64,000 bases of DNA from Phycisphaerales bacterium Planc_01 (GTDB lineage Bacteria > Planctomycetota > Phycisphaerae > Sedimentisphaerales > Anaerobacaceae), in the NCBI GenBank assembly GCA_001603075.1, contig LVBB01000041.1:124001-188000 (forward strand). Reading direction: 5' to 3'. The first letter of the stretch is position 1. Every line of letters begins with the position of its first letter. Both the position numbers and the translations under genes were made by a program. Shown piece after piece: positions 12,833-51,123 of this stretch. Under the pieces are notes generated by a model. That model searched no databases, was not told the origin of the DNA, and saw only the letters and a list, made by a program, of their open reading frames with translations.

Positions 12833-13318
12833 GTGGACGACAGGAAAAAGAAAATCACGATCATGTTCGCCGGGGTGGTTGTCGCAGGCGGCCTGATCGG
12901 TTTCGCCGCCCGTGCGACCGACCAGGATCCCGGGGCCACCTCCGCACCGCAGGCGCACCGCAGCGTGTTCGACGATCCCAACTTCGTCCGCCAAGGTCTC
13001 GAACCATCGCGCGGCATCGGTACCGGCGAACTGTTCTTCAAGATGATGCTCTCCGTCCTGCTGGTGGTCGGCCTGGGCGTCGGGGCCCTGTATCTATCCA
13101 AGAAGGTGCTTCCCAACGTCACGAAAGCGTGCGGCAAAGAGGTCCGCATCGTGGAGACCACCTATCTCGGACCGCGCAGGGCCCTCCATCTCGTGGAGAT
13201 CGGCGGCCAGAGGCTGCTGATCGGCAGCACCAACGACAGCATCACCATGCTGGCCCACGTGGGAGACGCCTGGTTGGATCTGCCCAAACAGGACATCGAC
13301 AGTTCGGTGGACGCATAG
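12833..13318 (+). CDS. fliO: Flagellar export-gate assembly protein FliO
   Basis: A 161-residue small membrane protein that helps FliP assemble. A hydrophobic N-terminal segment (about residues 7-25) may be a signal or anchor. The main membrane helix is at about 64-86 (MMLSVLLVVGLGVGALYLSKK). It is followed by the short conserved cytoplasmic domain with VRIVETTYLGPRRALHLVEI, the FliO signature. The GTG at 12833 is used with GAGGG five bases before it. The stop is directly followed by the fliP ATG. Confidence 0.85.
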   Translation: MDDRKKKITIMFAGVVVAGGLIGFAARATDQDPGATSAPQAHRSVFDDPNFVRQGLEPSRGIGTGELFFKMMLSVLLVVGLGVGALYLSKKVLPNVTKACGKEVRIVETTYLGPRRALHLVEIGGQRLLIGSTNDSITMLAHVGDAWLDLPKQDIDSSVDA

Positions 13319-15238: not shown

Positions 15239-15328
15239 GAGAATTGTCGATTCCGGATGATTGACCCCTCTGGATGCCGCCCGTTTCTTCGAGGGTTCAT
15301 CGTCAACCACCCGTAGGCAATCACGAAC

Positions 15329-16405: not shown

Positions 16406-16423
16406 CACGGCAGCCCTCGCGCG

Positions 16424-18448
16424 CTATCCCATGTTCAGAGCAGCCATCTGGTTCTGTAGCAGCGTCAGAGCCTTCTCCAGTCGCGCGTATTTGGTGATCA
16501 GGCGCGTTTCCACGCTCGACAGGCGCGTCTCCTCCTGGGCGATGCGGTTTTCGAGATTCCGAATCTGCGCATCAACCGAATTCTGATCCAGCGTCAGCCA
16601 GCCGCTCGTGGATTTCACGAAGCGCTCGATCACGTCCTCCATGGCGCCGGTGAAGCCCTGTCGGACGCGGACGGTGGCATTGAACGTGCCGTCCTGACTG
16701 AGATCGACGCTCAGGAACATCCCGTTTTCAGCGTACATCGGGGTCCCGTTGTCGGTGAACGTACTGTTGCCTGAGATCATATTCCCGCTGATGGTGGCGT
16801 CGCGATAGGCGGATTCGCCCTTGAGTTTGATCTGCGCGCTGGTGATGGCCCCTCCGGAAACGGTGACCTGCACGTTGTATGTTCCGCCCTGGGTGTACTT
16901 GCTCGATGCGCTGTAGAACTGGATCATATTGCTGTCGGAAGTGCCGGTCTTGTCGGCTCCGATAAGGGCCAGCACGCCCATGTAGTCCTTCGCGATGGCC
17001 TCGTTGAACACCGTGGTATCGAGAGAGAGCGTCCCATCCCGTTCGAGTTCGAGACCGATGTGTCCGGGCATGAGGAAGGAGTCGATGTCGATGACGAAGC
17101 CGTCGGTCTGTCGCAGCAGCGGCATACGAAGGCTGTTGAGGATGCTCGACACGGTGGAGTCGCCCATCAGGACACCGGCTGTCTTGAGGGTGCTGTTGTA
17201 GCCGGTCTTCTCGGCGAGAAACGTCACGACCGAATTGTACGCGTCGACCAAAGTCGTGAGCTTCTGCTTGACCGACTCGATATCACGCGTCAGATTGACC
17301 TGGACCGTTCCCGTGTCGTGCAGGTGCAGTGTCACGCCCTGAAGAACGTCGTCGATGGTGTTGGAGCTGCGGCTGATCCATGCCTCCTCCCCCATCGGAA
17401 ACCCATCCACCTTGATCTGCGAATCCTGGGCCGATTGGGTCTCGGCAAAGTCCGATTCGGCAAATCCCGCCAGGCTCGCCGCCGTGCTGCCCCCCTGCGT
17501 GAACTGCGCAATTGGAGGAAAGGTCAGAGTCGTGGAGCCGGAACCCGCATCGTAGCTGAGGCTCAACTGCATCTGGCTGGCGCCGCTGGTGTGGTCGGTC
17601 AATCGAATCTGACCGTTCACCACCGTCGCGCTGGCCGTCCCTCCAAACGCCGTATTGATCTCCTCGACGAGATGGTCGAGCCGGGTGTTCTCATTGATCG
17701 CGAAGTTGTAGCTCACCTCCGTCCCATCGTTCTGCCGGCCGGTGATCGTAATGGATTCATCGCCGGCAAACGTTCCCGTGAACTGATCCAGATCTTTGAT
17801 CTTCGTGGTCAATGAGGCATTCTCCCCTCCGACCGTGACGGGCGATGTGGTCTGCCATACTTCCGTATTGCTGGGATTGATGAAGATCTCGTAGTCGGAG
17901 CCGGCCTCGTTGCCGTTGAGAACGAGATGATAGGCGCCGTTATGATGGAGCAGCGTGGCGGTCACGCCGGGGTTGTTGGCGTCATTGTTGATCAGCCCGG
18001 CGAACTCCTCCAGCGTGGTATCGGCCGTCGTCGTGATGGTCACCTCTTTACGGTTATACGAGTAGATGAACACCCCCTCACCGACGTAGTCCTCCTTGTA
18101 CTTCATTCCCGTCGCGTGCACCCACCGTTCGGCGTTGGCGAGTTGGTTGACCACCACCGAATGGTTGCCCTCGAACGCGTTATTGGACGATACAGCGGTC
18201 AGGACGTCCGTGTCGCTGGAGGCGGTGGCATAGGCCCGCAGCGTTCGCGCATCCGAAAGGGCCGTCGCCGCCGTCTTGAGGTCGTTGAGCTTGGTCTTCA
18301 GCGTGTTGAGCGCCTCTTTGCGCTGGTCCCACGTATCCTTGGTCGCGACGTATTTGTTGAGTCTGCGCTGCTCGATCTGCATCAACTGCGTGATCAGAGC
18401 GCTCGTGTCGATTCCGGTGGACAAGCCTGACAGACGCAATTCACCCAT
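16424..18448 (-). CDS. fliD: Flagellar filament cap protein FliD
   Basis: A 674-residue filament cap that folds flagellin at the tip. The N-terminal FliD domain begins LRLSGLSTGIDTSALITQLM, and the C-terminal domain ends with a long coiled-coil helix (LENRIAQEETRLSSVETRL). The middle holds flagellin-hook-like IN motifs. ATG 18448 was chosen for its fit to the family N-terminus and GAAGGGG upstream; the frame is open to 18478. It is the last gene of the minus-strand run, behind the giant glycosylation gene, which ties that island to filament assembly. Confidence 0.95.
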   Translation of the reverse strand: MGELRLSGLSTGIDTSALITQLMQIEQRRLNKYVATKDTWDQRKEALNTLKTKLNDLKTAATALSDARTLRAYATASSDTDVLTAVSSNNAFEGNHSVVVNQLANAERWVHATGMKYKEDYVGEGVFIYSYNRKEVTITTTADTTLEEFAGLINNDANNPGVTATLLHHNGAYHLVLNGNEAGSDYEIFINPSNTEVWQTTSPVTVGGENASLTTKIKDLDQFTGTFAGDESITITGRQNDGTEVSYNFAINENTRLDHLVEEINTAFGGTASATVVNGQIRLTDHTSGASQMQLSLSYDAGSGSTTLTFPPIAQFTQGGSTAASLAGFAESDFAETQSAQDSQIKVDGFPMGEEAWISRSSNTIDDVLQGVTLHLHDTGTVQVNLTRDIESVKQKLTTLVDAYNSVVTFLAEKTGYNSTLKTAGVLMGDSTVSSILNSLRMPLLRQTDGFVIDIDSFLMPGHIGLELERDGTLSLDTTVFNEAIAKDYMGVLALIGADKTGTSDSNMIQFYSASSKYTQGGTYNVQVTVSGGAITSAQIKLKGESAYRDATISGNMISGNSTFTDNGTPMYAENGMFLSVDLSQDGTFNATVRVRQGFTGAMEDVIERFVKSTSGWLTLDQNSVDAQIRNLENRIAQEETRLSSVETRLITKYARLEKALTLLQNQMAALNMG

Positions 18449-18529
18449 GTTTATCGCCCCTTCATCTTCCGCCGGCATCCCGACGGACGGGTATCCGGGG
18501 CCGTTCCAGCAAACGACCCTGGTCTTGTT

Positions 18530-18574: not shown

Positions 18575-21500
18575 CTATGCCGCACCGACAGAATGTGCCT
18601 TCGTCGGTGAGGCCTTCGGGCGGGCCTCCGCCAGACCGATGGGCAATCGCCCGTCGTGTTCCCGGCACCACGCCACGACATCGACGGGTCGCGCCGATTC
18701 AAAGGCATCCCTGACGAATTGGCGGGCCGCCGGGTGGTCATGACGGTCGATCTCGCGCTCCAGATACAATCGAGCCTCCGGTTCCATCCGCAGGGCAAAG
18801 AGTGCCAGACCTCGAAGCAGGTCGAAGCCCTCCACGCGGTCCATGACCGTCGGCGCCAGGGCCTCCACGTCGTTGAGCATGCCTGCGCAACTGACGTAAC
18901 AGCCCCCATTGAACAGATCCACGGCCAGGCGCAGATACTCCGGAACAACGTGTTCGTCCAACGGCTCGTTCTCCCACGCAATGATCTGGGCCTTGAAACG
19001 CGTCAGGAAATCGCCGCAGGTGCATTGGCGCAATTCACGTCCGATATCCGCGCCGGGATGCAACCTCAGACGATCGCGGACGCCCTGGAGCTTGACCATG
19101 CAGTATTGTCGGTATCGCATCCTGCGATTGCGCGGGTCCAGAGTGGATACGAGCCGTGTGGAGTTGCTCCCGTGCATCCGGATCAGGGTCAGACACTCCG
19201 GCACGCTCTTTGCGCAAACCGGCTTGCCCGCTTCGGCATAAAGGGCCAGCTTCGCCGACCAGAAAGAGTCGGCGGCGAAAGGATTTTCATCGTAAAGACC
19301 GATCTCGGCGAAAAGCGATTTGCGGATGATGGCCGATCCATGGCTCATCCCGTGCTGCCAGGAACGGAACCGGGCCAGAATCTCCTCGTTCGTCCGCGGC
19401 AATCGGTTGTGCTCGCTGCACTGGGGGCCACGATACCGATCCAGGAAGGTGCGATAGTCCGATCCGACCATGGCCATCCGATCATCCATCCGGATCTCAT
19501 GATAGAGGGTCTCCAGCTTCGTCGGACACATGATGTCGTCGGCATCGTGCACGACGATAAAATCGGCGGCGGCCCGCTCGATGGCGAAGTTGCGCCGGAC
19601 GTAAGGGCCCCGACTGTCGTCGAAGCGGTGCACCTGAATGCGACCGTCGTGTCGGGCATACTCCGCCATGATTTGCCGTGAATCGTCCGTGCTGCCGTCA
19701 TCGAGCAGGAACAACTCCCACTCGCCCAGCGTCTGGGCCAGGATGCTGTCCACACACTCGGCCAGGAAACGTTCGGCGTTTCGGCACGCCGTGACTACCG
19801 TGACCTTGGGCGAACCTGCCGGCGTCGTCGCGGCCGCAAGGTGCGCTTTCGGAGACGCCTTCGGCCACAGGACCCTGTCGATCCGAGGTGTGATGACGTC
19901 GGCGCGTTCGGCGTACCACTGAGCCACATCGACCGCAACGCCTCGTTCGAAGATCTCCTGGTGCAACTGTCGAGCCATCGAGTTGTCGTGGTTGACCATC
20001 TCGCGATGCAGACAGTCCCGACCGCAATTGGTATGTCCCAGCCCATAAAGCGCCATCGCGTGGATCAGATCGAAGTTGGCCGCGCGAACCGCCACGGCGG
20101 GGTCCATGATTTCCAGCCAGCGCAGCGTCCGCACACAACTGACATACCGCCGTTCTCGCAAGTGCTCCAAGGCACGCCGGAGCAGGTCGTCCATGGCCCG
20201 GTCATCCGCAGGCTGCTTCTCCCCTTCGATCGCCTGATCGCCCCGTCGCTCCAGAAAATCGCTGCATGTGCATTCGCGCAGTTCATGGGCCATGTCGACA
20301 CCCGAGTCGCACTCAGCCCGCCCGACCGCCCCTTCGAGCGTCTCCAGGCAATACTGAGCATAGGCAACCCTTCGGCTGCGCGGGTCCATCGTCGGCAGCA
20401 ATCCGGTTTGCGAATCGGCATGGACCCGACGCAGGGTGAGGAACTCCGGGATCGTGCCGAGACGCACCCGACCGGTATGGTGGGCATATTCGATTGCCTT
20501 GGCCAGCCAGAACGAATCGGCGCCGAAGGGATTCTCGTCATAGAGACCGATCGTATCGAACAGATCGCGTCGCACGATGGCCGAGCCGTGCCACAGATAG
20601 TCCCAGATGCGTTGCGTCCGGTAGACTTCCAGCATCTGTTCCTGCGTCGTGGGCAGGATCGCCGCCTCCGTGTGCTCGATGCCGGTGAACTCATCGAGGA
20701 AACTGCGATAGAACGACCCGACGACTCCCAGACGCTGGTCCTCGGCGATTGCCTCAACCAGACGCTCGAGCTTCTGTGGAACCATGATGTCGTCGGCGTC
20801 CTGGATCGAGATGAACGGCGCGCGGGCTTGTCGGATGGCGAAGTTGCGGCGAACGTAGGGTCCGGCGCTGTCGTCGAAGTAGAGAGGCCGGATGCGCGCG
20901 TCCCGGGCAGCGTATGTCTCGATGATCCGCCGGGTGTCGTCCGTGCTGCCGTCGTCGATCAGGAATAGTTCCCATTCGGTCAGCGTTTGGCTCAGGATGC
21001 CGTCCAGGCACTCGGCAAGGTGCGTCTGCGCGTTGCGGCATGTCGTCACTACCGTGACCCTGGGACCCGAGGGGCGTGACGCAGGAGTGGACGCCGACGA
21101 TGCGGGGCGGGACGGTGTCCCCAGACGCTCTCTCATCTCCGGCACGAGAGCCGGACCGACGTGCACCATCACATCGTTGGAATCGGTCCCTCCCATGAGG
21201 ATCTGGCAGTGCTTGCACCGATGGGGCATATCGTCCCGGCTGTCCTTGATGGCCTGCCGCAAATCCTGGAGCTTCCTGCCGTTCCACACGCCTTCGAGGG
21301 GCTCCGTCAGCGCATTGCCCATCGGAAGGTCCAGCAGATGACAGCAGGGCACGACGTCGCCGTTGAGAAGGATGCGAACCCGCTGCCAAGGTCGAACACA
21401 CCGTCTGTGGCCTTCCGTCAGTTGCTGCGAGGCCACGTAGGGAGGGCGGCTCACATCGAAGTTGTTGGGGATGTCCAGGACCAATCCGAGTCGAGCGGCC

Positions 21501-24500
21501 TTGGCCCTGGCCAGATCGAAGCTTTCGTTCGCCTGTTCCCGATGGAAGAGCAACGAGTCGTCCAGCGCCGAGGCACTGTAGATGTGGACGAAGTTCACCG
21601 CCACGCTGTCGAAGGCATATCGGCCGGCCATCTCGATCACGTCGGGCAGTTCGGCGATGTTCTGGCGCATCGCAACGAAGGCCAGTTCGCAACCGAGGTC
21701 GGGCTTGTCCCGCCGGATGTCGGCCAGAATCTCCAGGTTACGGCAGAGGCGATCGAAACGCAGACGTGTACGGATGGATTCGTAGGTCTGTCGGGTGGAT
21801 CCGTCCACCGAAACACGAACGGTGTTGAAGAACTTCCGAATCGTCTCCGCCCGTCGCCCGGCCAGCGTGGACAGATTCGTCGTCATTCCAAGAGACACAC
21901 CGAAGCGATTGGCGTACTCGCAGAGATCGTAGAACTGCGGATGCAGCAGGACCTCGCCGCCGATCAGGTGAACATCCATGGCGGTCGGCAACCACTCGTC
22001 GGCCAGCCGTCTGAACTGCTCCAAATCCACGATCTCGCCGTCCATCCCGTAGCCGCACATGACACACCCCCCGTTGCACCGTGTGATCACGTTGAACTCC
22101 ACGATCGTGGGGCGGTGGGAACAGACAGCGGGTTTGTCGCGCCTGGCCTGGGCGAAGGCAAGCGCGTTGCTGAGGGTCCTCGCCTCGAAATCGAGCGCTC
22201 GGGCCTTGCTCTTCCTTCCGGCCTTGCGAAACAGCTCGGCGAGCTTCACCGCAACGGCATGCTTTCCCGAGGCCCCTCGAGGCATGGACCGATACTTGCG
22301 CTCCAGTTCGACAAGAACCTGCGCCGTTCGCTCGTCCAACGCCTCGTCCTCATCCGTCGCACGATCCGCAGGCATCTCAATTGCCGTCGGCGGGCTCGTT
22401 CGGTCTGTGTCGTGATCGCTGTCCGTCCCCTCCGGCGCAAGTCGGCCGCCGGGCGAGGGATCGCCTTCTGTCGATTGGGTCTCTGAAGGCGGCAATCGAT
22501 CCCGCATCTGTTCCATCCTCTGTCGTTGGGCCGGTTCCAGGCGGATATGACGATTCGCCAGAAGCCTCGCATACGTCTCGGCCACACCGTCATACCGGCC
22601 GATTTGCATGTAACACTCCGCCAGACGCGTGCAGGCGGCGATGTAACACTCCGTGATGTCTCGATAGTCGTGAAATTCCTTCTGTACGCGATCCAGACGC
22701 TCCCGGCCGAGCAGTTCCTCCAGAGGGGCGAGGATACCCTCAAGATAGGTACATGCCTCGGCGGGCCGACCCAGAAGCGTCCAGGAGGACCCCAGAACAC
22801 ATTTCGCCTTGATGGAATCGGGGCGGCCCTGGAGAGCCTTCTGCGCCCACTCAATCGCCACACGCGGATTGCGTTTTCGGAAGAACAGGCTGTTCTGCAG
22901 ACATTGCTCGTGCCGTTCGTCGTCCGTCCAGGTTCCGCTCGGACACAGGCCAGTGACAAACACCAGAAAACTCCATGCGTCGGATTCCTGCTCCTTCGCC
23001 AGGCAGTTCGATTGCATCAATTGCCCGATGGCAAACCGATGCTCCACAATCAGAGAATCCACATACTCGGCATGCGGCTCTACCGGACCACTGTAATGGA
23101 CAAGAACATCAGGGCAGTAGAGGATCGGTCGCCGACTCGCATCGGGATCCGCATAGATGCGGCACGACAGTTGAATCGCCCCGTGGTCGAACGGCATGCC
23201 GCCGAACCCGCCGAAACGGAGGAAGGTCGCCCTCTCGAAGACACACATTTCGTCGATGTCACATGCCGCATCAAGGACAGCGGGGCCCAAATCGAATCGA
23301 ACAGGACACACGGCATCTGCTGTGCACGCGATCCGGCCTCGCAGGCCGCTGAGATCCTGCCGCCGAACATGTTGCAGGATGCATCTGACGAAATCGCCGT
23401 CCGGCAGCACGTGCGGGCCCAGGAAGGCCACGTATCGGCCTTCCGCCTGCTTCGCGGCGGCATTGCGGTGCCGGCCCCAGCCGGCGCCCTGCCCGACCCC
23501 GAGAACCACAAGGCGAAAACCGACCGAATCGGCCACTGACGCCAAATCGCCGGGGACAGGCCCTCGCGTCAGTGCGATCACCTCGAAGTCCTTCTCGGTC
23601 TGCGCGTTGAACGAAGCGATCATCTCCGTCCAGGGCATCCCACCATCCGCCACAGACACGACCACGGACAGGCCCTTCGGGCCTTTGACGCCGCGCTCCA
23701 ACAGACATCGCGCCGGCTCACTCGGCTCATCGGAATCGCCGAGGAAGATGGCTTGCTCGATGAACCTCATACGCTCCGCCCGTGTCCACCAGCCGTCATA
23801 CCGGTCTACATACTTCGCCCGAAAGAACGCCGCCAGGGGCGTCCCATGCGTGCGCCATTCCCGGTCGAGACACTCCTCGGCCTGCTGTGGATATCCAAGG
23901 GCGAAGTACGCCAGCGCCTTGACCAGATCATAGCTCCGCACGTTCTGCGCGATACCCTCCACGAGTTGCTCGACGATCTGGCTTGTCACGATACACCGAA
24001 CGAACTGGCTGTTTGTCAGATGGGAACAAATCCTTCCGATGAACTCCCGAACCATCCGAGGCGTCAGAGGAGCGCTTTCCCATTCGGCGAATCGGTGGCC
24101 GTTCTCGCGGGCGAAATCACTGCACACGGTCTGCCGCAGCAGTCTCCGGACATCCGCCTGAGGATCGAAGTCGAGCTGCCGGATCACCTCGGACAACCTC
24201 CGGGCACGGAACTCCTTGAATCGCGCCCGACGACTGCGCGGATCGAACGCCGGCAGGCTGCCCGTCTGAGAGCCGACGTGCATCCGCCGCAACGTCAGCA
24301 CCTCAGGGATGTTCATCAGGCGAATCTTGTCGTTTCGGCACGCATACTCGGCAACCTTCGCCAGCCAGAAGGAATCGGAGGCAAACGGGTTTTCATCATA
24401 GGGGCCGATCTCGTCGAAGACCCGTTTCCGGATGATGGCGGAGCCATGCCAGCAGAAATCGCACGTCGCAGAGCTTCGGTATTCGGCCAGGATCTGTTCG

Positions 24501-27500
24501 TGCGTTGTCTCCAGGGCAACCGCCTCGCAGTGCTCGGCCCCCTCGTATTCGTTCAGGAACATATGATAGAACGAGCCCACGACAGCAAGGCGTTCGTCCT
24601 GCGTGATGGCGAGGTGCAGTCGTTCGAGCTTCTGTGGAACCATGATGTCATCGGCATCCTGGATCACGATCAACGGAGCGCCTGCTTTCTCGATGGCGAA
24701 GTTCCGTCGCACATACGGTCCGGCGTTGTCATCGAAGTAGAAGGCCCGGATGCGCGCGTCACGAGCGGCGTAGTCCGCCATGATCCGCCGCGTGCCATCC
24801 GTGCTGCCGTCGTCGAGCAGAAACAGTTCCCACTCCGCCAGCGTCTGACACAGAATGCTGTCGAGACACTCGGCCAAGTGCCGTTCCGCATCGTGACAGG
24901 CCGCAATCACCGTCACCTTTGGACGAGATCCGGCCGGTCGCCCCGCTGCAACATCGACAGAGCGGTTTCCGTCGGGCCGCGTCTCGACGCAAGCGGCCGC
25001 ATCCCGACATAGCAGGGACGCCGACGAAGTCGCAGATGCACGGTCCGGGCGGATGCGACGCGCACACGCATCGCGCTGCTGCACGAGCTTCTCTCGCAGG
25101 GTCTCGGGAATAGATAACCTGCGATTTTCGAGCAGTCGTGAGTAGCTTGCCACGGCTCGTTCATATTGTCCCATCTGCGCCTGGCATTGGGCCAGACAGA
25201 CGCAGGTCGTCGCATACCGCTCGATAAGGCGGGTGCTCCCGACGGAATCCGACGACGCACGGCTCGACTGCTTCGCGGCGATCAGAACCTCCTGATGGCC
25301 CAGCGATTCCTCCTGTTTGCAGGCGGCCAGGTCGCGTCTTCCGGCGGCCATCAACCGATCGGCCTGCCGCAGCAGCCAATCCACGCGCGCGGCTCTATAC
25401 GCCGCCGTCAGGTGGTTGGGCTGCCGGGGCGGCGTTTCGACGAGCACGCCTTGTCGGTTCAGTATCCATGTGGCCCCCGAGGTTCGTCCCGTGTTGTCGG
25501 AAGCCCCGGCCAGTTCGCGGTTGCGGGCCGCCTCCACCCCCTTCCAGGCCTCCTCTCGTCCACCGGCTACGTGTCCGTAGTCATGGTCTTGATGGACGGC
25601 AGTGATGAACTCGGTGCCGTCGACCACCACCGCCCCGTACGTATGCGGCGCCATGACCAGCCAATTGTCCCAGGCCGTCCGTCCGATCGCAAAAGGAGGA
25701 ATCTCGCGATACAGTCCCTTGGGAAAAACGAAGTAGTCGAGGCCGCACTCCGCGTGAAGCATGGCGTTCTCGGCCATCTGCTCCTGGAGCGAGCGCTGCC
25801 AGCACGGCTGACGGAAGTCAATCTCCTCCAGAACGGGGATGTCCCATCGCTGGCCGATGAGCAGGAATTGCGACTGTTGCGTCCGCACCCTCTGCACGCC
25901 GTCGGCGAAATCCTGAAAGAGGATCATATCCGCATTGACGTAGGCCAGCACCGCGTGCGAGGCGTGCAGCTGGGCGGCCTCAAACAGCTTGTTGACCAGA
26001 GGCGTGCCAAACTCATTGCGCTCGATATGAGGAACGTGACAGGCGCCGACCTCTTCAGCCATCTCGCGAATCCCTTGCTCATCGCCGAACAGGATGATCT
26101 CCGGCGCCGGGTCGAGCCGGGCCCAGCTTCGGATCGCGTTCTTCTGAATGACGGCCACGTGACCGACAAAGGCCTTCGGCATCGCGAAGATCGTCAGTCC
26201 CCGCTCATTCTGCGGCTGAGGTCTCGGCGTCTGTGCCTCGCCGCCGGGTCCAACGCGTGCGACAAGGTCCTCAAACAACCGCCGGCAGCTTGGATTGTCG
26301 GAATTCGGTACGACACGACCGAGGATGTCTCTGGCCTGTCTGAGCTGGCCGCACCGAGCAAAGCACACCGCCAGGCCGTAGGCGAAACCCCAGTCGCCCG
26401 GATGCTTGTCCATCAGATCGACCAGAGCCTGTGCCGCCTCGGCGATTCGATTCTGCTTGTAGTACCGCAAGATACGCTGCATGGCATCGCCCAGGGACGC
26501 AGAGGCGGGAATGCAGGCCAGGGGATGGTACAGGACAGTGCCCCATTCATCGGGCCGCTCGGCCGGCTGACAACAGCGTGACAGGCACCCCTTCCGCCAG
26601 ATGAGATGGACGTGCTTGGCATCCTCATCGTAATGCAGCTCGATACCATGACGGTTTACAAAATCGAGCAACGGGATCACTTCCGCAAAGCCCATGAACG
26701 AACCGCCTTTGTGGTAGGGAGCATAGTGTCCCTCGAAGCACTGCAGTTCATCGATCTCACCAACCACGCGACTGTTCAGAAACGTCTGAGCATTGTCGCG
26801 CGTCAGTCGCTCTTCGCTGAACCAGACATCGTCCACAATCACCAGGCTGCCGTCGGGTAAGACAGGCAGCGCCTTGGTGAGCACATGCTCCATAATCGGA
26901 ACACCAGGCAGATCGTGGGCATCCACGAAGAAGATCACTTTGTCCTGCGGCGTCCACAGCGTGGTGAAGTCGGTATCGAGGATGTCCTGCTCCAGAAGGG
27001 TCACTCGCGAGAGATCGACGGGAAGCAGACGCATCGTCTCATGCAATTCGGCGAAACTGCGGTCCACGGCGTAGATCTTCGCCCGAGGAGCGGACGTGAT
27101 CCACGTTCGCAACGACAGCCCGGCCAGCGTTCCCAGCTCGACAATGACCGTGGGATCGAAGGCCCGAGCCTGGGACGCCAGAGCGGCCAGGGTCTCGCTG
27201 GACTGATCGCGATGATACAGGCGGTTCTGCCTGGAGGTCAGGGTCTCGATCCAGCGGCTGAAGTGGGCCATATCCTGCACAGATCCCGGCAACGGAGCAT
27301 TGGCACATGAATCCAGTTGCTCCGTCAGGGCGCGCGTAAGCTCCTTCTGGACGAACGGGCCGAATCGATGGTTGCGCCGCATGAGTTGGAAGACAAACTC
27401 GTCCGGCTGCAGATGGCCTCGCCGCTCTTCGATCTGGCGCTGCCATGTGGGTTCGCCGTGGACGAGCGACGCGAGCGTCAAACGGGCATCCGCATAGATC

Positions 27501-29056
27501 CAACGGTCGGGCTCGCGCTGTGGCGCCGCGGGCCTGCCGTCACGGTAGTACCAGTAGCCTGTCACGTCGACGCCGACGGCTACCACGCACGGTCGCACCG
27601 CCGGACGCTCTCGCATGCGAATGGAATCGTACTGATGATAACCGATTCGTCGGAGCAGTTCGGGCAAGTCCAAGGGACGATTGGACACGGCATCGCGGTA
27701 GTCCAGGTTGAAATAGGCGTCCGATATGTAGAATCGCGGCGACTCAGATTTCACATCGGCAAAAAGCGTCACCGCATGAGATAGCACAGAGCCGGAAGAG
27801 TCCGCATAGCCGAAATGCGTCGCCGGTATGCCGAACAAGTTGAGAACCATCGCATGAAACACGGCCGTGCCGCCGCACCACACGCCTCCGTGTCGTCCCG
27901 AGAAGATTCGATACGCCGAGACCACATCCGTGGGGTGAATCTTCTTCGTCTCATCCGTCACCGCAACGGTCCGGGATGTCCAATCACGGAGAATATCGAC
28001 CGCCCTATGAACATCCGCACATCGAAGAGCCTCATCGAGCCCCGGACATTCCCGCCGTATGAGGTCCTTGAGTTCTTCCGGCGTAGACGGAGCCTCGCCG
28101 GCACATCGGGACCAGGGCGAGGGCGCGACACCCTGTCCGACGGACGAGACGGCCTTACGCGCCTTGCTCCGGAGCTTCGGCAATCGCGCAGCGTTCGGAT
28201 CGTATCGCTCCGCCTGCCGCACGAAGTACTCCCACCTCTCGGACGGCCCCTCGAACTTGAACACGCTGTCGGCCGCCCAGGCATAGTTGCCGGCGATGGC
28301 CTGCTCGACAGTGACCTTGCAGTCTCGCAGGATCTCGTTCTCACGAAACAGGGCGGGCATGACCCGCTCCCGTGCCGCCAGCAAGGCATCGTAGATCTCG
28401 CCACAGCGCGTGTGGGACTGCGAATGTCGGCCGAAGTGGCTGATGCTCACAGGCTGATAGAGGATCGTACCCACATTGGCCAGACGAATCCAGAATTCGA
28501 ACTCCCCGATCTCGTATCGCCAGGGGTGTTCGTGTAGGCCGGCCCGTTCGAGGGATTCGCGGTGAAAGAACGAGGAACAGAAGGGAGGCACCAGCGTTTG
28601 ACACACGTACGCCTCGATCGAGAACGGATGCGGCGGTACTCGTGGCCCCGACTTGTTCGCGTTCTCATCGACGTAGGAGACATTTCCGTAGAACGCCGCG
28701 ATGTGCGGATGGGCGACAAAGACTCGCGAGGCCTGCTCCAGCGCATCCGGAAACAACTCCTCATCGGACAGGCACGAGCCGATGTACCTTCCACGACAGC
28801 GTTTCAGCACCCGGAAGAATCCCTCTTCACCGCACGAATCCTCTTCCGACAGGAACCGAATGCGCGGGTCGGCGTACTGCGCCACGATATCGGCCGTTCC
28901 ATCGATCGATCCACCATCCTGGATCACGTATTCGAAATCCGTGAACGTCTGATGAAGAACGCTCTCGATGGATCGGCGAAACATGGCCTCCCGACCGACC
29001 ACGTTCTTGATGACCGAGTAGATGGAAAACTGTGGCGTTCTCTGATCGATGGACAT
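18575..29056 (-). CDS. Giant modular glycosyltransferase/radical SAM protein (3,493 aa)
   Basis: One uninterrupted frame encodes a cytoplasmic protein of about 390 kDa. In order, with rough residues: GT2 domain A (9-225, DGGS at 47-50); transglutaminase-like domain (350-455) with Cys394, His427 and Asp446; Rossmann methyltransferase-like domain (630-760); TPR-like helices (855-920); GT-A-like domain (950-1165, VNADMILF near 1040); TPR; GT2 domain B (1378-1600, DDGST 1415, DADD 1467). Then a degenerate GT2 (1793-1990); TPR; radical SAM with Cys2327, Cys2331 and Cys2334 and SPASM-like cysteines 2553-2617; GT2 domain C (2664-2890, DDGST 2701); GT2 domain D (3082-3300, DDGST 3119). B, C and D are clear duplications. 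ATG 29056 gives the GT2 start; the frame is open to 29254. It lies last in the glycan island, before fliD. I infer an assembly-line-like glycan builder; the acceptor is unknown. Confidence 0.85.
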   Translation of the reverse strand: MSIDQRTPQFSIYSVIKNVVGREAMFRRSIESVLHQTFTDFEYVIQDGGSIDGTADIVAQYADPRIRFLSEEDSCGEEGFFRVLKRCRGRYIGSCLSDEELFPDALEQASRVFVAHPHIAAFYGNVSYVDENANKSGPRVPPHPFSIEAYVCQTLVPPFCSSFFHRESLERAGLHEHPWRYEIGEFEFWIRLANVGTILYQPVSISHFGRHSQSHTRCGEIYDALLAARERVMPALFRENEILRDCKVTVEQAIAGNYAWAADSVFKFEGPSERWEYFVRQAERYDPNAARLPKLRSKARKAVSSVGQGVAPSPWSRCAGEAPSTPEELKDLIRRECPGLDEALRCADVHRAVDILRDWTSRTVAVTDETKKIHPTDVVSAYRIFSGRHGGVWCGGTAVFHAMVLNLFGIPATHFGYADSSGSVLSHAVTLFADVKSESPRFYISDAYFNLDYRDAVSNRPLDLPELLRRIGYHQYDSIRMRERPAVRPCVVAVGVDVTGYWYYRDGRPAAPQREPDRWIYADARLTLASLVHGEPTWQRQIEERRGHLQPDEFVFQLMRRNHRFGPFVQKELTRALTEQLDSCANAPLPGSVQDMAHFSRWIETLTSRQNRLYHRDQSSETLAALASQARAFDPTVIVELGTLAGLSLRTWITSAPRAKIYAVDRSFAELHETMRLLPVDLSRVTLLEQDILDTDFTTLWTPQDKVIFFVDAHDLPGVPIMEHVLTKALPVLPDGSLVIVDDVWFSEERLTRDNAQTFLNSRVVGEIDELQCFEGHYAPYHKGGSFMGFAEVIPLLDFVNRHGIELHYDEDAKHVHLIWRKGCLSRCCQPAERPDEWGTVLYHPLACIPASASLGDAMQRILRYYKQNRIAEAAQALVDLMDKHPGDWGFAYGLAVCFARCGQLRQARDILGRVVPNSDNPSCRRLFEDLVARVGPGGEAQTPRPQPQNERGLTIFAMPKAFVGHVAVIQKNAIRSWARLDPAPEIILFGDEQGIREMAEEVGACHVPHIERNEFGTPLVNKLFEAAQLHASHAVLAYVNADMILFQDFADGVQRVRTQQSQFLLIGQRWDIPVLEEIDFRQPCWQRSLQEQMAENAMLHAECGLDYFVFPKGLYREIPPFAIGRTAWDNWLVMAPHTYGAVVVDGTEFITAVHQDHDYGHVAGGREEAWKGVEAARNRELAGASDNTGRTSGATWILNRQGVLVETPPRQPNHLTAAYRAARVDWLLRQADRLMAAGRRDLAACKQEESLGHQEVLIAAKQSSRASSDSVGSTRLIERYATTCVCLAQCQAQMGQYERAVASYSRLLENRRLSIPETLREKLVQQRDACARRIRPDRASATSSASLLCRDAAACVETRPDGNRSVDVAAGRPAGSRPKVTVIAACHDAERHLAECLDSILCQTLAEWELFLLDDGSTDGTRRIMADYAARDARIRAFYFDDNAGPYVRRNFAIEKAGAPLIVIQDADDIMVPQKLERLHLAITQDERLAVVGSFYHMFLNEYEGAEHCEAVALETTHEQILAEYRSSATCDFCWHGSAIIRKRVFDEIGPYDENPFASDSFWLAKVAEYACRNDKIRLMNIPEVLTLRRMHVGSQTGSLPAFDPRSRRARFKEFRARRLSEVIRQLDFDPQADVRRLLRQTVCSDFARENGHRFAEWESAPLTPRMVREFIGRICSHLTNSQFVRCIVTSQIVEQLVEGIAQNVRSYDLVKALAYFALGYPQQAEECLDREWRTHGTPLAAFFRAKYVDRYDGWWTRAERMRFIEQAIFLGDSDEPSEPARCLLERGVKGPKGLSVVVSVADGGMPWTEMIASFNAQTEKDFEVIALTRGPVPGDLASVADSVGFRLVVLGVGQGAGWGRHRNAAAKQAEGRYVAFLGPHVLPDGDFVRCILQHVRRQDLSGLRGRIACTADAVCPVRFDLGPAVLDAACDIDEMCVFERATFLRFGGFGGMPFDHGAIQLSCRIYADPDASRRPILYCPDVLVHYSGPVEPHAEYVDSLIVEHRFAIGQLMQSNCLAKEQESDAWSFLVFVTGLCPSGTWTDDERHEQCLQNSLFFRKRNPRVAIEWAQKALQGRPDSIKAKCVLGSSWTLLGRPAEACTYLEGILAPLEELLGRERLDRVQKEFHDYRDITECYIAACTRLAECYMQIGRYDGVAETYARLLANRHIRLEPAQRQRMEQMRDRLPPSETQSTEGDPSPGGRLAPEGTDSDHDTDRTSPPTAIEMPADRATDEDEALDERTAQVLVELERKYRSMPRGASGKHAVAVKLAELFRKAGRKSKARALDFEARTLSNALAFAQARRDKPAVCSHRPTIVEFNVITRCNGGCVMCGYGMDGEIVDLEQFRRLADEWLPTAMDVHLIGGEVLLHPQFYDLCEYANRFGVSLGMTTNLSTLAGRRAETIRKFFNTVRVSVDGSTRQTYESIRTRLRFDRLCRNLEILADIRRDKPDLGCELAFVAMRQNIAELPDVIEMAGRYAFDSVAVNFVHIYSASALDDSLLFHREQANESFDLARAKAARLGLVLDIPNNFDVSRPPYVASQQLTEGHRRCVRPWQRVRILLNGDVVPCCHLLDLPMGNALTEPLEGVWNGRKLQDLRQAIKDSRDDMPHRCKHCQILMGGTDSNDVMVHVGPALVPEMRERLGTPSRPASSASTPASRPSGPRVTVVTTCRNAQTHLAECLDGILSQTLTEWELFLIDDGSTDDTRRIIETYAARDARIRPLYFDDSAGPYVRRNFAIRQARAPFISIQDADDIMVPQKLERLVEAIAEDQRLGVVGSFYRSFLDEFTGIEHTEAAILPTTQEQMLEVYRTQRIWDYLWHGSAIVRRDLFDTIGLYDENPFGADSFWLAKAIEYAHHTGRVRLGTIPEFLTLRRVHADSQTGLLPTMDPRSRRVAYAQYCLETLEGAVGRAECDSGVDMAHELRECTCSDFLERRGDQAIEGEKQPADDRAMDDLLRRALEHLRERRYVSCVRTLRWLEIMDPAVAVRAANFDLIHAMALYGLGHTNCGRDCLHREMVNHDNSMARQLHQEIFERGVAVDVAQWYAERADVITPRIDRVLWPKASPKAHLAAATTPAGSPKVTVVTACRNAERFLAECVDSILAQTLGEWELFLLDDGSTDDSRQIMAEYARHDGRIQVHRFDDSRGPYVRRNFAIERAAADFIVVHDADDIMCPTKLETLYHEIRMDDRMAMVGSDYRTFLDRYRGPQCSEHNRLPRTNEEILARFRSWQHGMSHGSAIIRKSLFAEIGLYDENPFAADSFWSAKLALYAEAGKPVCAKSVPECLTLIRMHGSNSTRLVSTLDPRNRRMRYRQYCMVKLQGVRDRLRLHPGADIGRELRQCTCGDFLTRFKAQIIAWENEPLDEHVVPEYLRLAVDLFNGGCYVSCAGMLNDVEALAPTVMDRVEGFDLLRGLALFALRMEPEARLYLEREIDRHDHPAARQFVRDAFESARPVDVVAWCREHDGRLPIGLAEARPKASPTKAHSVGAA

Positions 29057-29109: not shown

Positions 29110-30099
29110 TCAATGCGCATAGAAGACAATGTGCGAAGCCAGGGTCTCGAATCGAAACGGCACCACGAGGAACTGCTGGAGCGCTCGCCTGACCTGCGCC
29201 TGCCGTTCGGGCGGAACGAAGAAGAGGAAGAACCCGCCGCCGCCGGCACCGCACAGTTTGCCCCCCAGGGCTCCGGCGTCGATCGCCGTCTCATAAATCT
29301 CGTCGATCTCGCTGCTCGATACGAGCTCCGTCAACTCTCTCTTGAGCATCCAGGACTCGTGCAGGAGCCTGCCGAACGCGTCGTACCCGTATGCCGGTCC
29401 TCGAAGAATGTCCAATGCCTCGCCCACCATCTCGCGAATTCGTCTCAGTTCGCGGAGCTTTTGCGGCGTGCTTCGCACCTGTTCTCCGGCGATCTCCGAT
29501 GCATACCGGGAGAACCCTGTGAAACAAAGCAGCATGTGTTCCTGGAAGTACTGGAGCTTCTCCGGCGGCAGAACCACCGGCTGGACGAAGATGCCGTCGT
29601 CCCGTCCGCCGAACTCGATGCGATTGAAGCCCCCGAACGCCGCTGCCGTCTGATCCTGCGAGCCGACGCTTTCGCCGATGATGTTCTGCTCGATGTGGAT
29701 GGCGTCGAGCGCCAGCCGCCGCTTCGTGACCATCTCGCCTTTCAATGCGTACAATGCCTGCAGCAGCCCCACCGTGAAGGACGAACTCGATCCGATTCCG
29801 GACATGGCCGGGATGTCGCTGGTGTGTACGATCTCGACCCCGTGCTCGATGCCGCAGAAGCGCAGGCATTCGCGGACGGAGGGATGCTCGATTTCGTCGA
29901 TGGTGTTCGTCATCTCGCTCCTGGAATAGCGAATCCGATACTTGTAGTCGAAGAACGGCGGCAGGTATCGACAGGTGATGTAGCAGTAGTGGTTGATGGT
30001 CGTGTTCAGGACCTCGCCCCCGTGCTCGCGGTAATAGACGGGATAGTCCGAACCTCCTCCGAAGAAAGAAATCCGGAAGGGGGTCCGGGTGATGATCAT
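29110..30099 (-). CDS. hddA: GHMP sugar kinase, HddA-like
   Basis: A 329-residue kinase of the galactokinase/mevalonate-kinase family. It begins MIITRTPFRISFFGGGSDYP, typical of D-glycero-D-manno-heptose 7-phosphate kinase HddA and related enzymes. The ATP loop PAMSGIGSSSSF is near residue 100 and the C-terminal GGKLCGAGGGGF motif is intact. ATG 30099 with AGGGG upstream fits the family. An in-frame ATG at 30240 overlaps the previous stop as ATGA and has AGGAG, so a 47-residue extension is possible. With the HddC-like gene at 40528 it suggests GDP- or NDP-heptose formation, but GmhA and GmhB partners are not seen. Confidence 0.75.
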   Translation of the reverse strand: MIITRTPFRISFFGGGSDYPVYYREHGGEVLNTTINHYCYITCRYLPPFFDYKYRIRYSRSEMTNTIDEIEHPSVRECLRFCGIEHGVEIVHTSDIPAMSGIGSSSSFTVGLLQALYALKGEMVTKRRLALDAIHIEQNIIGESVGSQDQTAAAFGGFNRIEFGGRDDGIFVQPVVLPPEKLQYFQEHMLLCFTGFSRYASEIAGEQVRSTPQKLRELRRIREMVGEALDILRGPAYGYDAFGRLLHESWMLKRELTELVSSSEIDEIYETAIDAGALGGKLCGAGGGGFFLFFVPPERQAQVRRALQQFLVVPFRFETLASHIVFYAH

Positions 30100-30236
30100 C
30101 GGGTGCCCCTGCACGAGGCCGGGGCACTCGGCCCAGGCGGTATGGTCCGGGCGAAGCGTGGCAAGGGCGGCGCCGGCCGACGGACCGTATCCTGCATAGG
30201 GACGAGAGGAAGCCTTTGAGGAAGTATGGGTGACAA

Positions 30237-31187
30237 TCATAGCGTGCTCCTGTACCAGTCGATCGTCCTGCGCAGACCCGTCTCAAAGGGCGTGGTCGCC
30301 TCGAAGCCCAACAGGTGTTTCGCCCGGGAGGGATCGATCAGACGCTTCGGGATCATCGTCGGCTTGGTAAGATCGTATTCGATGCGGGCCTCCGTATAGC
30401 CATCCAGCTTGAGAATCAGATCGAGCGCATCGCGAAGACAGTGCTCCCGGCCCGTGGCCAGATTGATCGGCTCGAAGCGGTCGATCTTCTCCATCGCCAG
30501 CAACAGCCCCCCCACGAAATCCTCGACATAGATCAGATCTTTGATGTCTCGTCCGTCTCCCCAGACCTGGATGGGATCGTGCCGCTCGACCACACGACGA
30601 ATCAAAGCGGGCAGAACATGACTGGTCTCCCACTCGAAATCATCGTACGGACCGTAGATATTGGCCGGTCGGACCACCACGGTCGTCATGGGACGCTTGA
30701 TCTTGGTGGCATACATCTCGCATGCGGCCTCGCAGAAGCGTTTCAGCCAGCCGGCCACGAAGTACTTCTCGTAGAACTGGCCGGTCACGTCGGTCTCCTT
30801 GACCGGATAGTCCGTAACTGGATAGACGGTGCTGCTGCTGATGAAGAGCACCTTCTTCACACCAGCCGCATAGGCCGCCTCCAGCATCAGCACACTCATC
30901 GTAACGTTGGGCGTCAACAGGAACAGCGGCTTGGTCTCCATCATGTGCGCCCCGGCGGTGACGGCCGCACAGAGGAAGACATAGTCGACATCGGCGCAGA
31001 CGCCGGCGCAGTCCTCGGCCTTCGTCAGGTCGCATCGGACGTATTCGATCCGGTCGTCTGCGATCACCGGGTCCTTCGCGTGCACCGTCGCCCGTACCCG
31101 GGCCCCGAGGTCCACGAGACGGCGAACGAGGTTCGCCCCGACGAAACCGGCCCCGCCGGTCACAAGCACGCTCTTTCCTTCAAACAT
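30237..31187 (-). CDS. NAD-dependent sugar epimerase/dehydratase (SDR)
   Basis: A 316-residue extended SDR. The NAD loop is VLVTGGAGFVGANL at residues 7-20, the Ser-rich strand is ISSSTVYPV, and VVRPANIYGPYDDF follows. Where the catalytic YxxxK is expected the sequence reads AGWLK, so Ala replaces Tyr; the SDR at 33247 shows the same feature. Function is probably epimerisation or reduction of a nucleotide-linked sugar. It follows the RmlC-like gene by 17 bases, and its stop overlaps an ATG of the kinase frame as ATGA. Confidence 0.8.
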   Translation of the reverse strand: MFEGKSVLVTGGAGFVGANLVRRLVDLGARVRATVHAKDPVIADDRIEYVRCDLTKAEDCAGVCADVDYVFLCAAVTAGAHMMETKPLFLLTPNVTMSVLMLEAAYAAGVKKVLFISSSTVYPVTDYPVKETDVTGQFYEKYFVAGWLKRFCEAACEMYATKIKRPMTTVVVRPANIYGPYDDFEWETSHVLPALIRRVVERHDPIQVWGDGRDIKDLIYVEDFVGGLLLAMEKIDRFEPINLATGREHCLRDALDLILKLDGYTEARIEYDLTKPTMIPKRLIDPSRAKHLLGFEATTPFETGLRRTIDWYRSTL

Positions 31188-31204: not shown

Positions 31205-31723
31205 CTATTCGACAAAATGCCCCGCCTCGTCTCTTCGCGACAGCACCGGCTGGCCCGTCGGCCACCAGATGCCCAACTGCGGGTCGTCCCACTTCAACGT
31301 GAACTGACCGGCGGGATGGTAGTAGGTGCTTTGCTTGTAGTGGAAGATCGCCTGCTCGCTGAGCACCAGATGGCCGTTCCCGAATCGCGGCGGAACCAGC
31401 ACCTGATGGCAGTTGCGATCGGACAGGACAAAGGACTGCCAGTGTCCGAACTGGTCCGACCCCTTGTCCCAATTGACGACCACAAGATAGAATTTGCCCG
31501 AGAGGCAACTGATCAGCTTCCAGGTTTCCGCATCTCCGTGGATGCCGCGCAGGACGCCCCGGTCCGAGACGGAAATGTCGTCCTGCACGAACGCCGCCTC
31601 GATCCCGCGGTCGCGGTACATCTGCTCGTTGTACGTTTCCACATACACGCCCCGGTGGTCCTCGAAGACCTCCGGGCGGATCCGTTTGACGCCTGCGAGT
31701 TTGGTTTCTTCGACGACGATCAT
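31205..31723 (-). CDS. dTDP-4-dehydrorhamnose 3,5-epimerase-like protein
   Basis: A 172-residue cupin of the RmlC/RfbC family. The conserved RGVLRGIHGDAETWK stretch (near residue 60) holds the catalytic His, and VPPRFGNGHLVLSE matches the second half of the active site. It should epimerise C3 and/or C5 of a 4-keto-6-deoxy sugar nucleotide. RmlA, RmlB and RmlD are not together with it, so the substrate may be GDP- rather than dTDP-linked. Its start overlaps the stop of the radical SAM gene as ATGA. Confidence 0.85.
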   Translation of the reverse strand: MIVVEETKLAGVKRIRPEVFEDHRGVYVETYNEQMYRDRGIEAAFVQDDISVSDRGVLRGIHGDAETWKLISCLSGKFYLVVVNWDKGSDQFGHWQSFVLSDRNCHQVLVPPRFGNGHLVLSEQAIFHYKQSTYYHPAGQFTLKWDDPQLGIWWPTGQPVLSRRDEAGHFVE

Positions 31724-33198: not shown

Positions 33199-33246
33199 GG
33201 ATCTCTCCAGCGTCCCGGCGGCCATGGCGCGCCGGACGCTTCGGAC

Positions 33247-47889: not shown

Positions 47890-49080
47890 TCAGATGAAAT
47901 CCAACAACGACAGAGTCATCAGCTTGCCCGCTACCGACAGCGACATCTGATAGAGAATCTCCCGACGCGACAGATCGATGGCAATCTGGGCAATATCGGC
48001 TTCCTGGAGCCTCGTCGTCTCGTCCTCTGTGTCAAATTGCATGTTTTCGAGGGTATCCTTCAGCGTGTTCAGAAACCCGATCTTGGAACCTGTGGTGACG
48101 TTGGCCTGAATCAGAAGGTCCCGCACCTCCTTCACGGCCTTGACGCATTCATCCACGTATCCCAGCAGTTCCTGTACGGGCACGTCCCGGTCGTTGTTGA
48201 GCATATCCCGCAGGCTGATCAGAGTCCCGAACACATCGTACGTTCCAGGGACCCGCACGAGGTCGACGCCGGTGCTCTGAATCGACGTGGTATCCACGTA
48301 GAGCACACGACCGGTCCGAGAATCGGTGATGGCCTGATTGGGATCGCCGCCGGCCGGCACCGTGAAGAACGTGGCCCCTTCGTCAATCGAGATCCGATAG
48401 TTGGCGCCGTCGTGCTCGACGGTCATCCAGACATCGCCGCGGATGTTCGACGTGCCGGTTCCGGCCTGGACCCCGGTGTTGCCGAGAATCACGGGGCTCT
48501 GCCGCCTGTCCACGCGAAACACGTCGTCGCCCGCATGATACGCCGCGATATCCACGGCCGGCGCAACATCGACACGACGCGCCTCGTTGCTGCCCTGGTA
48601 GGTCACCCCAACGATCTGCCCGTTCGCGTATTCCACCGCATAGGGCGCCGTGCTGGTGCTGCTTCCGGAGAACAGATACTGGTTGGCGTGTTTCGTGTTG
48701 GCCAGCGACATCAGTTGCTCCAGGGTGCTGTTGATCTTGTCGGCGATCCTCTTCTGACCCTCCTTGTCATAGACGCCGCCGACGATCTGCGTCAGCAGCG
48801 TCTCGACGGACGACAGTTCTGACGCCATGTTCTCCAGGATCGTCGAGGAGATCTCCAGCGTCCCGATCAGCTCGACCGCATTCTCCAGATAGCCGTCCAG
48901 GGCCCGGTGCTGCGTGTTCAGCCCCAGGATCCGATAGGCCTCGGAGGGGCTGTCGGAAGCGCGGTTGACCCGGTTGCCCGTGGAGGTCTGCTCCTGCAAC
49001 TGGGTGATCGCCTTGGCATGCAGCGCCAGGGAGTAGCTGACATTCGAATAGATGCTCGCCAACGAGCCGCTCATAGTCAC
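47890..49080 (-). CDS. flgL: Flagellar hook-filament junction protein FlgL (HAP3)
   Basis: A 396-residue junction protein between hook and filament. The N-terminal flagellin-like helix has ITQLQEQTSTGNRVNRASDS (about residues 24-43), and the C-terminal D0 helix ends YQMSLSVAGKLMTLSLLDFI. Both ends are needed for the coiled-coil core. The large middle domain is variable. It follows flgK by 72 bases. Its stop is followed by the island promoter region, not by fliW or csrA as in many bacteria. Confidence 0.94.
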   Translation of the reverse strand: MTMSGSLASIYSNVSYSLALHAKAITQLQEQTSTGNRVNRASDSPSEAYRILGLNTQHRALDGYLENAVELIGTLEISSTILENMASELSSVETLLTQIVGGVYDKEGQKRIADKINSTLEQLMSLANTKHANQYLFSGSSTSTAPYAVEYANGQIVGVTYQGSNEARRVDVAPAVDIAAYHAGDDVFRVDRRQSPVILGNTGVQAGTGTSNIRGDVWMTVEHDGANYRISIDEGATFFTVPAGGDPNQAITDSRTGRVLYVDTTSIQSTGVDLVRVPGTYDVFGTLISLRDMLNNDRDVPVQELLGYVDECVKAVKEVRDLLIQANVTTGSKIGFLNTLKDTLENMQFDTEDETTRLQEADIAQIAIDLSRREILYQMSLSVAGKLMTLSLLDFI

Positions 49081-49152: not shown

Positions 49153-51123
49153 TCACACGATATCCATCAGCGTGGACATGGCCGTCTGGAGCGTGGCCAG
49201 ATACTTGGCGACCGCCTGGAACATCTTCTCGAACACAAGCAACTGGGCCGCTTCGTCATTGATATTGACGCCGCTGATCTCACCCTGTCGCTTTTCCAGG
49301 TTCGTGATCAACGCCTCGATGTTATCCTGTCGGGACTGCTTCAAGGAGACTTCCTGCCCGACACGAGCCACGATGCGCTGGTAGTATTCGTTGGCCGTCA
49401 TACCGTCGAGACTGTCGATCGTCTCATCCTTGATGCGCGCCAGTTGCAGCGCAACGGTGTTATCACTGAGATCGGCGCCGGCGGCACTGGCGATCCGGCT
49501 TGGGTTGTCCGCCACATCGGCACACAGACGCATTTCCGAGGCGCTGGCGCCGGTGAAGAACGTGTTCATGCCCGCCGCCGCCAGAAAGCCCGATGTATCC
49601 GTGGTGGCGAAGACATCGACTTCGAAGCTGTCGCCATCGTTGAGTCCGCCCGTACCGACGGCAATCTTGACTCCGTTCTTCAGTTCGATCACGTCGCCGG
49701 CGGCATAGCCGGACCCGACGTTCACCGTCGCCACAAGGTCGCCGGCTTCGTCCACCACGTCCAGTCGCAGATTGCCGTTCCCCACGGTTCCCGTACCCAC
49801 CGCGGTGAAGGTGAGCGTCTGGTTCGCCTCTCCACTGTAGATGCCGGAGACCGAAATCGCCGGCGGAGAACCTGCCGTCAAATTGGTGGAGTTCGGATCC
49901 GGAAGCATCGCGGGCAGAAAGTCGAATGTGTAGCCCAGATCGGAGATGATGTGAAGTCGCGATGAACCCGCCGAAGCGTTCAGACCATCAACGGCGTTGA
50001 TCTTGGCGGCGATCGACGACAGACTGTCCGGCGTGGCTCCCGAAACGTTCACGTCGATGGCATGCCGTTCGATCTGGCCGGTTTCCATGTTCGTCAACCG
50101 GATGTAGAAAGTCCCGTCCACAATCGGCGGCTCGACGTCGGCCAGATTCTCGGCAGGCAGGCCCTCCCCGATCAACTGCGCGAAGGAACCGTCCAGCCCC
50201 AGACCCTGTACGTGATAGGAGTTGACCTGGCTGATGATTCCTTTCGCCAACGTGTCAAGTTCCCCGCGTATACCCGGCAGCAGTTCGTTTTTCAGCGTGA
50301 GCAACGCCCCCAGTCGTCCCCCCTGGACGTTCAGGCTCGATCCGGTCGTGCCCGCGGCGGAGATGTTGAGCATCCGACCTTCCTGTACGGTGGCGCTGAT
50401 CTCCAGGGACACGGCCCCGGTGACGATGGGCAGGCCCCCGAGCGAAATGTCCACCACGCCGTAGTCGCGGGAGACGACTTCCACCCCCGCCAGCGCGCTC
50501 AACCTCGACACCAGGCTGTCCCGATGGTCCCGCAGGTTGTTGGCCTGTCCACCTGTGATTTCGACGCTCTGGATCTGCATATTGAGCTCGGCGATCTGCT
50601 TGGCCAGCGTGTTGATCGAATCGGCCGCGTTCTGCGCCTCCGTGACAATCGCATCCTCCATCTGGGTCAGCGACGTTCCCATGCGACGGAATTCGCTGGT
50701 CAGCACTTCGGCCGCACTGATCGTCTCATTGCGCCACACGCTCTCCGATGGATGCGCCGCCATGCCGCGCAGGGCATCGAAGAATGCGTCGATCGTGGCG
50801 TTGAGTCCCCCTTCCTCGATGAACTCTCCGAAGATCGTCTCCACGCTGCTCAGCGTCGTCAGTTCCTGGGAGATCTGCCCGTAGGAGGACTTCTGACGAA
50901 GCAGTTCCCCCTCCAGCAGACTGTCGATCATCTGGGCGACGCCCAGCACCTGTACGCCGCCGCCGACCTCCGTGGTGCCGCTTCGGACGGTTCCTGCGGC
51001 GACGAACTCCACCCGTTGGCGGTGGTAGCCTTCCGTCGATGCATTGGCGATGTTGTTGCCGACCACGTCGAGCGCCGCATAGGCGGCGTTCAGACCGCTC
51101 AAGCCGATTACGTAGTTCTGCAT
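49153..51123 (-). CDS. flgK: Flagellar hook-associated protein FlgK (HAP1)
   Basis: A 656-residue junction protein. The N-terminus contains GLNAAYAALDVVGNNIANAS, the rod/hook/HAP signature, and the C-terminal D0 helix ends AKYLATLQTAMSTLMDIV. The middle carries several hypervariable domains, making it longer than the 550-residue enterobacterial protein. A strong hairpin lies 17 bases before its start codon in the 64-base gap to flgN. Confidence 0.95.
   Translation of the reverse strand: MQNYVIGLSGLNAAYAALDVVGNNIANASTEGYHRQRVEFVAAGTVRSGTTEVGGGVQVLGVAQMIDSLLEGELLRQKSSYGQISQELTTLSSVETIFGEFIEEGGLNATIDAFFDALRGMAAHPSESVWRNETISAAEVLTSEFRRMGTSLTQMEDAIVTEAQNAADSINTLAKQIAELNMQIQSVEITGGQANNLRDHRDSLVSRLSALAGVEVVSRDYGVVDISLGGLPIVTGAVSLEISATVQEGRMLNISAAGTTGSSLNVQGGRLGALLTLKNELLPGIRGELDTLAKGIISQVNSYHVQGLGLDGSFAQLIGEGLPAENLADVEPPIVDGTFYIRLTNMETGQIERHAIDVNVSGATPDSLSSIAAKINAVDGLNASAGSSRLHIISDLGYTFDFLPAMLPDPNSTNLTAGSPPAISVSGIYSGEANQTLTFTAVGTGTVGNGNLRLDVVDEAGDLVATVNVGSGYAAGDVIELKNGVKIAVGTGGLNDGDSFEVDVFATTDTSGFLAAAGMNTFFTGASASEMRLCADVADNPSRIASAAGADLSDNTVALQLARIKDETIDSLDGMTANEYYQRIVARVGQEVSLKQSRQDNIEALITNLEKRQGEISGVNINDEAAQLLVFEKMFQAVAKYLATLQTAMSTLMDIV

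Follow-up and report, generated by a model that had tools for sequence, protein, structure and literature searches.

Within a 64,000-nucleotide stretch of the genome of Phycisphaerales bacterium Planc_01 (GenBank assembly GCA_001603075.1, contig LVBB01000041.1, positions 124,001 to 188,000; hereafter, the window), a single gene of a flagellar locus encodes a giant multi-domain protein that probably decorates flagella with sugars. The domain analysed here lies between an N-terminal part resembling family 2 glycosyltransferases (GT2) and a methyltransferase-like part, and it is an optional cassette of this modular flagellar-glycan builder. It is likely to be a divergent transglutaminase-like (papain-like cysteine) domain, as judged from its sequence, and to belong to a family that lies outside both Pfam and NCBIfam; we assign a probability of about 0.5 to the reading that this optional cassette acts as a cysteine acyl- or amide-tailoring enzyme where the cysteine is present. 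What is probably new, then, is an undescribed family of a known (probable) superfamily, in an unexpected and polymorphic place.

The reading frame occupies the minus strand from 29254 to 18575, and residues are numbered from its most plausible start, the ATG at 29056. Two further members of the family are known, one from the same genus (G002) and one, more distant, from the same order (G517). A preliminary description of this DNA had proposed that Cys394, His427 and Asp446 form a triad with the order and spacing of the transglutaminase fold, and all three residues are indeed found at the positions and with the numbering that it gave, in the minus-strand motifs GVWCGGTA (27886-27863), LSHAVTLF (27784-27761) and ISDAYFN (27727-27707). 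Its placement of the domain between GT2 and methyltransferase-like parts likewise agrees with the N-terminal GT2-like part and the Methyltransf_24-like residues 639-744. The three codons are as follows:

27875..27877, minus strand: codon TGC of Cys394; G002 has TGG (Trp) here, and G517 has a Cys.
27776..27778, minus strand: codon of His427; same residue in 3/3 known members, the window counted.
27719..27721, minus strand: codon of Asp446; unchanged in all three known members, again with the window counted.

For comparison, we used loci of the Pfam family PF01841 (Transglut_core) from the same genome family, 31 of 32 being compared (L032 was not recovered). The window domain shares with these the Cys-His-Asp order and the CxxxA and G-I-P-A register after the cysteine: it has Ala at +4, Gly at +15 and Pro at +17, which are found in 19, 22 and 31 of the 31 members, respectively. 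The Cys-to-His gap of 33 residues also lies within their range (28-44), whereas the His-to-Asp gap of 19 is one residue beyond theirs (14-18). The domain further differs from Transglut_core in scoring below the family cut-off, in being embedded in a giant glycosyltransferase protein and in having one homologue without the cysteine.

The distant homologue provides the most telling evidence for the fold. A profile of the window and G002 sequences retrieves G517 with an E-value of 5.8e-40; it is 32% identical to the window over 242 alignment columns and retains VWCGGA, SH and MDAY, that is, all three triad residues with their spacing unchanged. In the three-sequence alignment, H123 and D142 are among the invariant columns and the cysteine is present in the window and G517; the full triad is, therefore, seen in two of the three known members. 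Taken alone, the G517 domain matches PF01841 (E 0.0034, 18.1 bits, profile positions 14-78). Moreover, when the three-sequence profile is compared with the 31 Transglut_core members using hhalign, cysteine falls on cysteine with a score of 28.2, which is reached by none of 400 column shuffles (maximum 26.0). In a block-motif test, the score of G517 is reached in 7/3000 shuffles, with C, H and D all picked; among 255 real open-frame pieces, one scores above the window and none above G517. Because G517 keeps the triad and matches PF01841, and because the hhalign superposition of the cysteines goes beyond all 400 shuffles, the window domain probably has a divergent transglutaminase-like fold.

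That the domain is optional in the protein is illustrated by G001, from the same genus, in which the GT2-like part (91% protein identity) is followed almost at once by the methyltransferase-like part (92%). Here, between flanks that align by blastn at 89.2% and 92.5% DNA identity, 30 unrelated bases take the place of 861 bases of the window (27270-28130), and the reading frame is kept; G001 may have lost the cassette or may never have had it. The more distant G029 (GT2 part 69%) is likewise without the cassette. The methyltransferase-like part, used as a query in 159 genomes of the order, is present in 14; in the surroundings of the 13 carriers other than the window, a relative of the domain is seen in two (G002 and G517), and there is none in the fetched stretch of the other 11. 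As G001, from the same genus, lacks the domain, the cassette is optional, and since domain-less versions are maintained, its step would be one of decoration, not core assembly. The states in G001, G002 and G517 are taken from one assembly each.

Trees of the separate parts are mutually discordant or weakly supported, which fits an exchange of modules between these proteins. Across loci L089-L099, which include one from G514, the methyltransferase-like part stands behind a GT2-like module in G001 and G029, behind another glycosyltransferase-like module in G005, G487, G485, G484, G036, G491 and G004, and behind an FkbM-like module in G018 (the labels of the latter two groups being assigned by eye). 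Such varied N-terminal modules before one methyltransferase-like part may be taken as a sign of module swapping.

In the proposed mechanism, Cys394, polarised by His427 and Asp446, would attack an acyl or amide carbon to give a thioester, and an acyl or amide group on the sugar under construction would thereby be hydrolysed or transferred. The step would alter the decoration of the glycan, the building of which would proceed without it.

A number of observations weigh against this proposal. G517 is a single distant homologue, and its N terminus is cut by the end of the contig. The closer homologue, G002 (record JAAYBV010000074.1, a Phycisphaerae metagenome-assembled genome; 89% identity over 290 residues), has TGG GAC (Trp-Asp) in place of the TGC GGC (Cys-Gly) of the window, with His and Asp unchanged; for this relative, the substitution goes half of the way to what the preliminary description would have taken as a refutation. 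Given that G517 carries the cysteine, its loss in the G002 lineage would be the simpler history. Between the window and G002, the ratio of non-synonymous to synonymous substitution rates (dN/dS) is 0.16 for residues 340-500, close to that of the GT2 (0.20) and methyltransferase (0.18) parts, so the domain has not been drifting freely over most of the divergence of the two; the Cys-less domain of G002 is under purifying selection, which suggests a role without need for catalysis. Within the domain, the core from Cys to Asp (window 27650-27910 against L007:13336-13596 of G002) has about 95% protein identity and a dS of 0.12, whereas dS is 0.42 in the N-terminal GT2 part and 0.93 in the glycosyltransferase-like part after it; the low value suggests recombination in that stretch.

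The selection on the Cys-less domain raises the possibility, the main alternative though a less likely one, that the domain is transglutaminase-like but non-catalytic, and that it would bind and activate, or gate, the neighbouring GT2 module, the cysteine being a dispensable relic. A precedent would be found in yeast, where the chitin synthase Chs2 is itself a GT2 enzyme. The transglutaminase-like domain of Cyk3, in which His and Asp remain but the cysteine is missing, increases Chs2 activity (PMC4758748); inactive transglutaminase-like domains also occur in other settings (PMC10318531). The G002 version resembles this domain of Cyk3 in having lost the cysteine, kept His and Asp and retained an adjacent GT2, and the cassette directly follows the GT2-like part. 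However, this pattern is found in G002 only: the window keeps the cysteine, as does G517 despite an identity of only 32%. Additionally, the GT2-like part persists without the cassette in G001 and G029, and in G517 (its N terminus lost at the contig end), the domain precedes an FkbM-like methyltransferase. Compared with what is described of Cyk3, the domain and the glycosyltransferase here share one chain, the protein is bacterial and it is known from sequence alone. The bolder version, in which the cassette would be a built-in controller of GT2 existing in three states, a bacterial counterpart of Cyk3 on chitin synthase, seems to us unlikely. The natural series within one genus (with the cysteine, with the cysteine replaced and with the domain absent) offers a means of telling whether such domains act in catalysis or in regulation.

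The remaining adverse observations concern the fold. The window domain itself matches nothing in Pfam at E-values up to 10 and nothing among the NCBIfam models at E-values up to 1; the G517 score of 18.1 bits lies under the curated PF01841 cut-off of 23 bits, which is reached by neither domain. The hhalign probability is 17.6%, and the aligned part spans the cysteine and stops short of His and Asp. In the block-motif test, the score of the window is reached in 71/3000 shuffles, with the cysteine picked correctly and H and D misplaced; by itself, the window sequence is mildly unusual in this test. Structure prediction with AlphaFold2, run to see the three residues in one site, gave mean confidence scores (pLDDT) of only 38.5 with two sequences and 40.0 with three, and no usable structure; the low-confidence models, which lend weak support, place the cysteine where a helix begins, with His and Asp in or next to the strands that follow. 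Searches of these models with Foldseek and VIA gave no significant match, and at such pLDDT values, matches carry no weight; for the window model, weak and unsupported Foldseek rows (E 0.8-3) name 3isr, a putative cysteine protease, as well as TglA (9crn) and a number of ubiquitin proteases, and neither these rows nor their absence for the other model were counted.

Should the domain be unrelated to transglutaminases, with the C/H/D pattern and the GIPA motif coincidental, the missing family match of the window domain and the unusable models would be accounted for, as would the finding that a comparison by sequence with solved structures brings unrelated proteins to the top. We consider this improbable, as the PF01841 match of G517 is independent, none of 400 shuffles matches the hhalign score with the cysteine in register, and the triad is kept at 32% identity. 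The profile comparisons, accordingly, favour the superfamily named in the preliminary description through G517 and hhalign, but not through the window domain, and a transglutaminase-like domain stands as the best reading, with the triad kept in G517, though the nearest homologue has Trp for Cys. Finally, the domain might be a true transglutaminase or amide ligase that attaches a side chain of flagellin to the glycan or to a carboxyl group carried by a sugar. This would suit the fold class, the flagellar locus and the UDP-sugar dehydrogenase gene (42058-43482) as a possible source of uronic acid, but it is very improbable indeed: G001 has no such domain and that of G002 has no cysteine, so the domain cannot be the sole glycan–protein link there.

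Counting the genome of the window, real homologues of the domain are found in 2/89 genomes of the taxonomic family, 3/161 of the order, 3/397 of the class sample and 1/392 of the phylum sample (the samples overlap). A scan of genome contigs returned the G002 record alone; scans of viral contigs and tblastn searches of plasmids and phages found no homologues. Among the low-scoring genome matches, those with E-values up to 0.04 were looked at one by one. Two of them (G627 and G459) were dropped, their alignments falling away from the cysteine and covering a VGNEIT/VQIGNEIS stretch typical of glycoside hydrolases; so were a short match with a stop after the cysteine, apparently non-coding (G507), three that do not cover the triad (G745, G564 and G133) and three that disappear with the three-sequence profile (G487, G471 and G017).

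The protein that carries the cassette has, by Pfam, five GT2 stretches, tetratricopeptide repeats (TPRs), a radical SAM and SPASM pair and a weak Methyltransf_24 match. Its parts, all on the minus strand, are:

18575..29056, minus strand: giant multi-domain protein, 3493 residues (ATG at 29056; open frame reaching 29254).
28131..29056, minus strand: N-terminal GT2-like part, residues 1-309 (GT2 label read from the sequence); identity of 91% with G001 and 85% with G002.
27270..28130, minus strand: transglutaminase-like cassette, the 861 bases without a counterpart in G001.
26825..27142, minus strand: Methyltransf_24-like part, residues 639-744 (Pfam 17.3 bits, under the cut-off of 26.3).
26291..26461, minus strand: TPR stretch, residues 866-922 (Pfam).
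24386..24862, minus strand: GT2-type domain, residues 1399-1557 (PF10111).
21629..22093, minus strand: radical SAM domain, residues 2322-2476 (Pfam).
21203..21400, minus strand: SPASM domain, residues 2553-2618 (Pfam).
20549..21055, minus strand: GT2 domain, residues 2668-2836 (PF00535, best of its 5 stretches).
19457..19810, minus strand: GT2 domain, residues 3083-3200 (PF13641).

The G002 counterpart has 4015 residues and six GT2 stretches, against 3493 and five in the window, and the number of modules, therefore, differs between close relatives. In G517 (L064, 4414-9948), a match to FkbM methyltransferases comes next after the domain, and then a CmcI/Methyltransf_24-like part, TPRs and a glycosyltransferase-like part.

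The surrounding genes place this protein in its context:

16424..18478, minus strand: FliD, flagellar cap protein, the next gene downstream; it also adjoins the G002 homologue.
29110..30240, minus strand: GHMP-type sugar kinase, the next gene upstream.
42058-43482: UDP-sugar dehydrogenase family gene.
48655..49050, minus strand: Flagellin_N match in a 400-residue frame beside FlgK, probably FlgL (label inferred).
49153..51123, minus strand: FlgK, flagellar hook-associated protein 1.

FliK is also encoded in the window, and a second Flagellin_N match lies about 265 bases beyond its left end. Between the two Flagellin_N matches are genes for a GHMP kinase, a dTDP-sugar isomerase, a UDP-sugar dehydrogenase and a transketolase-type protein, as well as for methyltransferases and glycosyltransferases. 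As these glycan genes are set among FliD, FlgK, FliK and the Flagellin_N matches, the locus is a flagellar, and probably a flagellin, glycosylation island. Five candidate frames between FliK and FliD (7137-9656, 9632-10468, 11557-12660, 13094-13930 and 15227-16408) have no Pfam match.

In flagellin glycosylation islands of Enterobacteriaceae, closely related strains are known to differ in just one tailoring enzyme, for example an FkbM methyltransferase (PMC4875605). The present locus shares with that island type, and with that of Geobacillus (PMC5109656), the variable tailoring and the placement among flagellar genes, and differs in that what varies here is a cassette of domain size, carried within one giant protein. 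The word transglutaminase does not occur in either paper, and no description of such an architecture was found in the open-licence papers searched. Bacterial glycan assembly gains in the cassette a family that is probably transglutaminase-like and had not been described, and the cassette suggests that flagellar glycan diversity arises by the swapping of domain-sized cassettes within a single giant protein. Radical SAM sequences occur twice in the island, as a gene at 31720-33225 (read from its translation only) and as the domains at 21203-22093, and the two hint at unusual sugar chemistry.

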